Below, one piece after another: positions 3 through 1,750 of a DNA stretch of 64,000 bases; position 1 is the stretch's first letter; each line of letters begins with the position of its first letter. Source of the stretch: Ochrobactrum vermis (lineage in GTDB: Bacteria; Pseudomonadota; Alphaproteobacteria; Rhizobiales; Rhizobiaceae); contig NZ_PCOC01000001.1 in the NCBI RefSeq assembly GCF_002975205.1, positions 1,984,001 through 2,048,000 on the forward strand, written 5' to 3'. Position numbers and translations under genes: made by a program. The notes under the pieces are model-generated. The model did no database searches and was not told the origin of the DNA. It worked only from the letters and a program-made list of their open reading frames with translations.

Positions 3-761
3 GGCGCCGAAGCGATCCGCTTCCCGCCCGGCATGAACCGCGCTTTCTTCGAAAAAAGCGGCTACATGAAAAGCTTCCCGCAACTGGCCGGTACGGTGCA
101 CAGCTTCTGCGGCTGCGAGCTTGACCATGTCAACCTCATCAAATGCATGGATGAAGGCACCGACTGGACGCTGGAACAGAAGGCGACGGACATCGTTCTG
201 ACGCCTGCAGCCTGTTACCCGCTCTATCCCACGATTGCCAGGCGCGGACCGCTGCCGCAGGGTGGCGGTCTTTACGACCTGCAATCCTACTGCTTCCGTC
301 ATGAACCTTCGGTCGACCCTGCCCGCCAGCAGCTTTTCCGCATGCGTGAATATGTGTGCATGGGCACCGAGGCCAATGTGATGGCATTCCGCCAGCTCTG
401 GATCGACCGTGGCACAGACATGATGAAGAAGGTCGGGCTGCCAGTTGAAATCGACGTCGCCAACGACCCGTTCTTCGGACGTGCAGGCAAGTTGCTGGTC
501 AACAACCAGCGCGACCAGAACCTGAAGTTCGAACTGCTGATCCCGATCACCAGCGTCGAGAAGCCGACCGCCTGCATGAGCTTCAACTATCATCAGGACC
601 AGTTCGGCGTGAAATGGGGCCTGTCGCTTGACGACGGTGCCGTGGCACACACCGCCTGCGTCGGGTTCGGACTGGAACGCATTGCACTGGCGCTCTTCCG
701 TCACCACGGTCTGGATGTTGAGATCTGGCCGGAAAATGTACGCAAGGAATTGTGGGGCTGA
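3..761 (+). CDS. Amino acid:[carrier protein] ligase, class II aaRS-like (5' partial)
   Basis: The 5' end is cut by the window; the frame is open from base 3 and 252 residues are visible. The family looks like a truncated class II seryl-tRNA synthetase but loads an amino acid (glycine or alanine in the studied members) onto the phosphopantetheine arm of a small carrier protein instead of tRNA. Counting from the Met at base 33, Cys61 (PAACYP), Glu106 (MREYVC) and Cys209 (HTACVGFGLERI) are spaced 45 and 148 residues apart. This is the spacing I recall for the zinc ligands Cys131/Glu176/Cys279 of the Bradyrhizobium enzyme. The motif-3-like GFGLERIALALF is intact. The next gene starts within or just after its stop, so the two are co-translated. 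The carrier protein gene is expected upstream, outside the window. Confidence 0.88.
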   Translation, partial: GAEAIRFPPGMNRAFFEKSGYMKSFPQLAGTVHSFCGCELDHVNLIKCMDEGTDWTLEQKATDIVLTPAACYPLYPTIARRGPLPQGGGLYDLQSYCFRHEPSVDPARQQLFRMREYVCMGTEANVMAFRQLWIDRGTDMMKKVGLPVEIDVANDPFFGRAGKLLVNNQRDQNLKFELLIPITSVEKPTACMSFNYHQDQFGVKWGLSLDDGAVAHTACVGFGLERIALALFRHHGLDVEIWPENVRKELWG

Positions 762-769
762 TCGCGACT

Positions 770-1750
770 ATGCAGGCTGTTTTTCCGAACATCGCGCCCG
801 ACCGTTACACGCCGCACGCTTTGCATGCCCAGACGCGTATCTGGCCGGAAACCAACTGCTATGTCGATCTCTGGATCGAAGTGCTGGCAGCATTGGGTGT
901 CGCTCCGGAAGCCATGCTCGGCTTCACGCTCACACAGGATTTCGAGGGCGACCAGTTCACCTTCTTCAAGGTGCCGCTGGAAGACCTCGAAGCCCTGTAC
1001 GGGGTGCGGGCGACGGAGCTTGCAATTTTCGATCGTGTGGAAAGCCATGTGGCCGAGCAGATTGCACGCGGCCGCCTGTGCATGATCGAAATGGACAGCT
1101 ACTTCATGCCGGATACGCATGGCGTCAGCTACCGGACTGAACATGGCAAGACGACCATCGCCATCAATCGTATGGACGTTGAAAACCGCTCGCTGGATTA
1201 TTTCCACAATGGCGGTTTTTATCATCTGGAAGGCGACGATTTCGACGGTGTTCTTCAGCGTCATCTGACGGAAGTCGACCTGCCCTTCCTGCCGTACACG
1301 GAATTCGCCAAGTTTCCAAAGAATGTGCCGGATGAAGCGCATCAGCGACGCGTTGCAGAAATCCTTCTGGCACGCCATTTTGCTCGCAGGCCGAAAGAAA
1401 ACCCGATCCGCGCGTTTGCCAGCGCTTTTCCTGGACAGGTAGAAGCAATCGCAGAGCGTCCGTTCGGCTTCTTCCATAAATATGCCTTCAACACACTGCG
1501 TCAGCTCGGCGCAAATTTCGAACTCGCGGCAAGTCACCTCGACTGGCTGGGGCAAGGCAAGCGTTTTGCAACGGCCTCAACGGATGCCTTGCAGATTGCG
1601 GAAACAGCAAAGGCTGTTCAGTTCCAGCTCGCCCGTGCTGTGATGCGCAAGAAATTCGACGCATTGGCCGGAACGCTGCAACCCGCAGCAGATGCCTGGG
1701 ATCGGATGATGGCAGCGCTTGCAACGGAACTCGGTCGCGATGCGGCTTGA
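770..1750 (+). CDS. DUF1839 family protein, possible BtrH-like cysteine acyltransferase
   Basis: The protein has 326 residues and belongs to the DUF1839 family, whose members sit next to amino acid:carrier protein ligases; no function is established that I know of. I chose the ATG at 770; a GTG at 752 in the same frame would overlap the ligase stop. The N-terminal half shows an order of motifs like a papain-fold BtrH_N domain: Cys30 in ETNCYVDLW, then ALGV, then an Asp-Ser-Tyr strand (MIEMDSYFMPD, 106-115), His117 and His125, and a final D-Y-F-H-N-G-G-F strand at 143-150. BtrH transfers an acyl group from a carrier protein to an amine, which would fit the neighbour that loads the carrier. That assignment is inference from motif order only. 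The stop overlaps the next gene's start by 11 bases. Confidence 0.8.
   Translation: MQAVFPNIAPDRYTPHALHAQTRIWPETNCYVDLWIEVLAALGVAPEAMLGFTLTQDFEGDQFTFFKVPLEDLEALYGVRATELAIFDRVESHVAEQIARGRLCMIEMDSYFMPDTHGVSYRTEHGKTTIAINRMDVENRSLDYFHNGGFYHLEGDDFDGVLQRHLTEVDLPFLPYTEFAKFPKNVPDEAHQRRVAEILLARHFARRPKENPIRAFASAFPGQVEAIAERPFGFFHKYAFNTLRQLGANFELAASHLDWLGQGKRFATASTDALQIAETAKAVQFQLARAVMRKKFDALAGTLQPAADAWDRMMAALATELGRDAA

Follow-up and report, generated by a model that had tools for sequence, protein, structure and literature searches.

A five-gene operon of Ochrobactrum vermis and a candidate aminoacyl transfer pathway for DUF1839 proteins

The window examined here is a stretch of 64,000 nucleotides from Ochrobactrum vermis (contig NZ_PCOC01000001.1, positions 1,984,001 to 2,048,000) that begins within a five-gene operon. 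The operon encodes, in order, a carrier protein, a flavoprotein with an acyl-CoA dehydrogenase fold, an amino acid--[acyl-carrier-protein] ligase, a DUF1839 protein, and a GH2 glycosidase. We favour a reading in which the ligase loads the carrier protein and the DUF1839 protein, through Cys30, would transfer the aminoacyl group as an amide to a cell-surface amino sugar, and we assign this overall reading a probability of about 0.62. The route proposed for DUF1839, which resembles that of the lincosamide enzyme CcbD, is drawn from its predicted fold, its conserved residues, and the linkage of its gene.

Linkage of the ligase and DUF1839 genes

The source genome comprises 5.40 Mb in three contigs, and 16 kb around the locus was read as stretch L002. 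The five genes are closely packed, with gaps of no more than 8 bases and two overlapping junctions. Those for the carrier protein (83 amino acids; L002 6424-6675) and the flavoprotein (L002 6675-7847) lie outside the window. The ligase gene (302 amino acids, family NF005479; L002 7853-8761, forward strand) begins 147 bases before the window, such that codons 1-50 are outside and residues 51-302 of 302 are encoded at window positions 3..761. The DUF1839 gene (326 amino acids, PF08893; window 770..1750, L002 8770-9750, forward strand) starts with the ATG at 770 (alternative GTG at 752), which fits the residue numbers of an earlier, sequence-only reading of this DNA. The gene for the beta-mannosidase-like GH2 protein (816 amino acids; window 1740..4190, L002 9740-12190, forward strand) overlaps it by 11 bases.

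A survey of the phylum covered 398 genomes, which were searched for DUF1839 and for ligases scoring over the NF005479 cut-off. DUF1839 is present in 16 of these genomes and the ligase in 28. The two genes adjoin in all 16 DUF1839 genomes, which argues that the pairing is not due to chance, and the same 16 genomes carry all five genes in the same order. This arrangement also holds for 79 of 80 loci in a second set, composed of the best 80 of 562 DUF1839 loci found. The exception (L119) is a 6.5 kb contig on which the ligase and GH2 genes are both partial and those for the carrier protein and flavoprotein are missing. These counts are not independent, since some of the other sampled genomes are from the same species as loci of the 80-locus set. 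A chance neighbourhood of ligase and DUF1839 was rejected on the basis of the two sets, and the placement of DUF1839 directly behind the ligase in the sequence-only reading is borne out (8 bp separate them in the window).

Among the best 80 loci, the closest to that of the window are from Brucella pecoris (97%) and B. pseudintermedia (95%). Within the genus of the window organism, 13 of 24 genomes carry DUF1839, its own genome included. Two same-genus genomes (G508 and G513) have DUF1839 in two pieces, and their assemblies are 85% and 69% complete. A scan of viral contigs for DUF1839 yielded no relative.

With 514 bits, the ligase clears the NF005479 cut-off of 357, and among solved structures it is closest to 4h2w (E 2e-95) and to 3mey, which is Bll0957 (E 3e-90). 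Residues Cys121, Glu166, and Cys269 align with Cys131, Glu176, and Cys279 of Bll0957, which we take to be its zinc ligands. They are invariant in all 27 aligned ligases (of the 28 that exceed the cut-off, one with an internal stop was excluded), so the three zinc ligands recognized in the sequence-only reading are indeed retained. Close relatives of this ligase load a small amino acid onto the phosphopantetheine of a carrier protein with the use of ATP. The carrier protein of the operon has its best matches to 4h2w_C, a solved aminoacyl carrier protein, and to Agrobacterium Atu2571 (2jq4), with E values of ~1e-32. Bll0957 and the Agrobacterium ligase/Atu2571 pair resemble the present system in family score, zinc ligands, and a neighbouring Atu2571-like carrier, and none of the features compared sets them apart from it. 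A carrier protein gene, which was to be sought immediately upstream of the ligase, therefore exists, although the flavoprotein gene lies between the two.

The other 12 of the 28 ligase genomes, with Bradyrhizobium-type loci, lack DUF1839. The ligase and flavoprotein genes adjoin in these genomes and a carrier protein match is present in 10 of them, whereas neither DUF1839 nor GH2 was found in any of the 12. Six of these loci (L064-L067, L075, and L076) encode a conserved 291-amino acid protein directly behind the ligase (for example, L066 8551-9426, reverse strand), and a relative is encoded a few kb from the ligase in a seventh (L072). The protein appears GNAT-like by eye, and the L072 relative matches Acetyltransf_1 with an E value of 0.004, a match that falls short of the cut-off. 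This protein could be an alternative transfer enzyme that takes the place of DUF1839.

Fold and catalytic residues of DUF1839

The protein encoded in the window scores 473.4 bits against PF08893 (cut-off 22.5), and its AlphaFold2 model has a pLDDT of 87.4 and a pTM of 0.88. In a fold search, this model matches CcbD, AziU2-U3, and CtaG over nearly its full length, including the helical C-terminal half. Papain-like/C39 folds match weakly and only in the first half, and classic hydrolases cover residues 1 to ~190 only; a function as an ordinary protease was rejected on the results of this search. Structure prediction, proposed as a check on the sequence-only reading, thus gave a fold that is not unrelated to papain-like proteins, with the best matches being CcbD, AziU2-U3, and CtaG.

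According to the available portion of PMC12945683, CcbD is a carrier-protein-dependent and cysteine-dependent enzyme that forms amides. The lincosamide condensing enzymes CcbD/LmbD (PDB 7yn1, 7yn2, and 9dkr) share their whole-chain fold with the DUF1839 model and have a nucleophilic cysteine at a helix start. Correspondingly, Cys30 is the first residue of helix 30-41 in the model. The two groups have no detectable sequence relation, and lincosamide clusters use an adenylation domain as the loading enzyme, in place of the SerRS-like ligase found beside DUF1839. CtaG of the closthioamide pathway (PDB 9quz and 9qvj) and AziU2-U3 (PDB 8gs1 and 7wuw) are similar in fold and belong to different pathways. 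The PDB titles for CtaG name the variants C11A, H128A, and D144N, and these titles point to a probable Cys-His-Asp set. BtrH, with its BtrH_N domain (PF14399), has in common with DUF1839 the fold class and the idea of acyl transfer from a carrier to an amine, as far as the accessible text of PMC10318531 describes it.

Residue conservation was assessed in 155 DUF1839 copies, which comprise the 80 loci, 12 further Rhizobiales copies, and 63 copies from Burkholderiaceae. Cys30 (codon 857..859, forward strand), the proposed acyl-accepting nucleophile, is present in 137 of the 155 copies and in all 92 from Rhizobiales. Its conservation, a point raised by the sequence-only reading, is therefore upheld, and its absences are consistent with a ligase step that has been lost or compensated for. 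Thr128 (codon 1151..1153, forward strand) is kept in 137/137 copies with Cys30 compared with 10/18 without it, and the equivalent values are 135/137 and 10/18 for Thr129 and 137/137 and 16/18 for His146 (codon 1205..1207, forward strand), which is the proposed catalytic histidine. The sequence-only reading had cast His125 in this role. It is well conserved (136/137) and located near the usual position of the catalytic histidine, but it is retained regardless of Cys30 (18/18), such that Thr128 and His146 fit better. Ser110, another residue of the proposed motif, varies among the 137 copies (103 Ser, 28 Ala, and 6 Gly). Because Thr128 tracks Cys30 and His125 does not, our counts favour a published assignment. 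Specifically, a 2023 survey (PMC10318531, in the portion available) classed DUF1839 as papain-like with a swapped Cys-(Thr/Ser)-His triad. On the basis of these alignments, the triad is most likely Cys30-Thr128-His146, in contrast to Cys-His-Glu in CcbD. His236 in the helical half tracks Cys30 more closely than does Thr128 (136/137 versus 3/18), and this pattern suggests that it may have a role in substrate binding or catalysis. Two further alignments were not used as evidence: an unreliable low-stringency HHalign run places His125 on the BtrH_N histidine, in favour of the sequence-only reading, and an ungapped alignment made by eye places Thr128 on this histidine and His146 on the BtrH_N aspartate.

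All 18 copies without Cys30 are found among 120 Burkholderiaceae genomes, of which 45 carry DUF1839 in a total of 63 copies. Eight of the 18 are strays, and the operon copy in each of these genomes retains Cys30. Seven adjoin a ligase, and each of these genomes has a second copy with Cys30, located nearby where both share one contig. In these seven cases (L063, L054, L207, L208, L210, L225, and L235), the DUF1839 protein of the operon carries Arg or Gln at position 30, and the two copies are possibly an active/inactive pair. The remaining three are the sole DUF1839 copy of their genomes (G477, G426, and G402), whose operons lack the ligase. A whole-genome search for a ligase over the cut-off found none in any of these three, the only match being a distant one of 114 bits elsewhere in G426. 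Their loci (L206, L244, and L245) keep the carrier protein and flavoprotein with the Cys-less DUF1839, and GH2 was not seen in the stretches read. The other 42 Burkholderiaceae genomes with DUF1839 all have the ligase, GH2, and at least one Cys30 copy. Loss of Cys30 is associated with loss of the ligase (Fisher's test, 7e-5). However, on a tree the three genomes represent only two independent events, and the coupled loss is therefore only suggestive and not proof of the role of Cys30.

Proposed pathway and alternative explanations

In the pathway we propose, the ligase would use ATP to activate a small amino acid, which it would load onto the phosphopantetheine of the carrier protein. Cys30 of DUF1839 would then accept the aminoacyl group, with His146 as the base and Thr128 orienting it, and the enzyme would hand the group to an amine to form an amide by a CcbD-like two-step route. 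The cysteine-dependent transfer from the aminoacyl carrier is the step we regard as likely. The predicted acceptor is an amino sugar on a precursor of a surface polysaccharide. This is the best guess because the acceptor of CcbD is an amino sugar, GH2 is an obligate partner, and polysaccharide genes recur as neighbours; we rate a sugar or glycolipid acceptor at somewhat under even odds. The weakest step is that of the flavoprotein, which would oxidise or hydroxylate the carrier-bound amino acid, and oxidation of the tethered amino acid is accordingly put forward tentatively. It is rather unlikely that every detail holds together, namely a machine of plant-associated bacteria, derived from a tRNA synthetase and free of nonribosomal peptide synthetases, in which Gly or Ala is loaded, oxidised or N-hydroxylated on the carrier, and amide-linked by a CcbD-like enzyme with a swapped triad to a surface-polysaccharide amino sugar.

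The best family and PDB sequence matches of the flavoprotein are a mix of dehydrogenases and monooxygenases, with the nitrososynthase DnmZ being the first PDB match. At the position near the C-terminus that is equivalent to the catalytic Glu of acyl-CoA dehydrogenases, 107 of 107 sequences have Ile or Val, as counted without gaps from the Arg-Asp motif. The other known base position also has no Glu by eye. An ordinary dehydrogenase acting on the carrier-bound amino acid was rejected because the catalytic base is missing. When compared with flavin monooxygenases of the acyl-CoA dehydrogenase fold (DszC, MsuC, KijD3, and DnmZ), the flavoprotein model (pLDDT 76.6) ranks DszC, TdsC, and MsuC at the top with dehydrogenases within 1-2 Z. 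This model is weaker than that of DUF1839, and the predicted fold alone does not separate the two activities. The flavoprotein may oxygenate the tethered amino acid, in line with the 2010 proposal.

The GH2 protein matches Glyco_hydro_2_N2/Glyco_hydro_2 and the beta-mannosidase 5n6u (E 1.2e-54). Its catalytic residues Glu412 and Glu493, located by aligning the protein with 7op6 and 5n6u, are kept in 95 of 95 sequences, and inspection of the N-terminus by eye revealed no obvious signal peptide. Genes for a WcaJ-like sugar transferase, ManC, Wzc, or Wza occur in the stretches read from 23 of the 45 Burkholderiaceae genomes. Among the best 80 loci, a flippase-like gene is near 28 and a glycosyltransferase gene near 14. 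Downstream of the operon in the window, a double alpha/beta-hydrolase (594 amino acids; TIGR03100 and TIGR03101 matches below their cut-offs) is encoded on the opposite strand at 4285..6069, and 51 of the 80 loci have it close to the five genes. In some loci, flippase and hydrolase are fused in one frame. For example, the 1108-amino acid frame at L052 14872-18195 (forward strand) joins a polysaccharide flippase-like half to the double alpha/beta-hydrolase, which has a gene of its own in the window.

Several observations weigh against the favoured reading. The twelve genomes without DUF1839 indicate that the ligase can work without this partner, and Cys30 is absent from 18 of 155 copies. The retention of carrier protein, flavoprotein, and Cys-less DUF1839 where the ligase is lost is not explained by the model. 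The place of the usual catalytic histidine of papain-like folds is occupied by Thr in DUF1839, and polysaccharide genes were not seen beside the operon of the window organism. The sequence-only reading had proposed a BtrH_N-type acyltransferase fold for DUF1839; the fold class agrees with the AlphaFold2 model, but no match to BtrH_N itself was obtained. Specifically, a Pfam search gave no PF14399 match even at E 10, and HHalign against seven BtrH_N proteins reached a probability of 0.8% (E 0.07) with no usable alignment. One Cys-less copy (L018) has a BtrH_N match below the cut-off (E 0.13). A PDB sequence search with DUF1839 found no match up to E 10, and a search with the DUF1839 profile A4 found four, the best at E 0.031 and all unrelated. 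Moreover, a common fold is no proof of common chemistry.

The main rival is the same chemistry leading to a diffusible small molecule, such as an amino-sugar conjugate of the signal, siderophore, or antibiotic type, rather than to a surface polysaccharide. CcbD, CtaG, and AziU2-U3 all belong to antibiotic pathways, and on this analogy the fold would be equally compatible with such a product. The cassette is also patchy within the genus, with one copy on a plasmid, and the double hydrolase rather than polysaccharide genes adjoins in two of the three ligase-less genomes and in Brucella/Agrobacterium-type loci. We nevertheless consider a small-molecule product improbable, at perhaps one chance in four, given that no recurring dedicated exporter or resistance gene is found near the loci and that polysaccharide genes recur in both bacterial orders. 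Two further explanations seem to us quite improbable, and equally so. DUF1839 might be a thioesterase- or peptidase-type hydrolase that clears wrongly loaded carrier, as most papain-like folds are hydrolases (available text of PMC10318531) and the Thr128/His146 triad is unusual. Yet the whole-length matches, with the helical half included, are to amide synthases, and the obligate GH2 partner would be unexplained. Alternatively, it might serve the flavoprotein and carrier protein chiefly in a structural or regulatory capacity, with Cys30 of little weight. The 18 Cys-less copies, which keep most other invariant residues, and the three ligase-less genomes accord with this view, although it sits poorly with the Cys30 copies retained by all 42 Burkholderiaceae ligase genomes and with the invariance of Cys30 in Rhizobiales.

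Two features are peripheral to these questions. Directly upstream of the carrier protein gene, 46 of the 80 loci (Rhizobium-type) have genes for LysRS-like (tRNA-synt_2), radical-SAM/LAM_C, and divergent EF-P-like proteins (for example, L052 5380-7487). The first two are read as EpmA and EpmB, and the EF-P-like protein was named by eye. This group, which was considered as a possible functional partner of the operon, is absent from the other 34 loci, including that of the window organism. Elsewhere in the window, the run of frames at 46525-54651 looks by eye like a histidine-utilisation (hut) cluster.

Relation to published predictions

The core idea of an aminoacyl amide ligase beside a carrier ligase was already published in 2010. 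In the available part of PMC2922099, a note added in proof by Aravind, de Souza and Iyer predicts that Atu2574 is an amide-forming ligase acting on a cell-surface amino sugar, and that the redox enzyme of the operon oxygenates the aminoacyl group. The operon type is the same as that described here, and from its gene order we infer that Atu2574 is a DUF1839 protein. In this part of the paper, the name DUF1839 does not occur, no fold is suggested for the protein, and CcbD is not mentioned. The 2023 survey guessed that DUF1839 helps to process glycans at the cell wall, and the main text of PMC10318531, to the extent available, makes no mention of aminoacyl, seryl, or CcbD. Our analysis adds the whole-length match to CcbD, CtaG, and AziU2-U3, the conservation counts for single residues, and the joint loss of Cys30 and the ligase. 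These additions were not found in the literature searched, which covered few subscription journals, contained the name DUF1839 in one paper, and was examined only narrowly for DUF1839 together with CcbD. Likewise, a literature search by gene names turned up no experimental work on the operon.

Grouping DUF1839 with CcbD and CtaG joins two published predictions that had not been connected, namely an amide ligase without a fold and a papain-like fold without a partner. It also provides one testable reaction, predicts a sugar-borne amine as the class of acceptor, and points to the residues to mutate. If the proposal is true, relatives of aminoacyl-tRNA synthetases would supply amino acids to a CcbD-like transfer in symbionts and other plant-associated bacteria. 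This would provide a long-missing function for amino acid:carrier protein ligases and, if the less likely full scheme with an oxidised or N-hydroxylated Gly or Ala also held, would represent a new kind of sugar modification.
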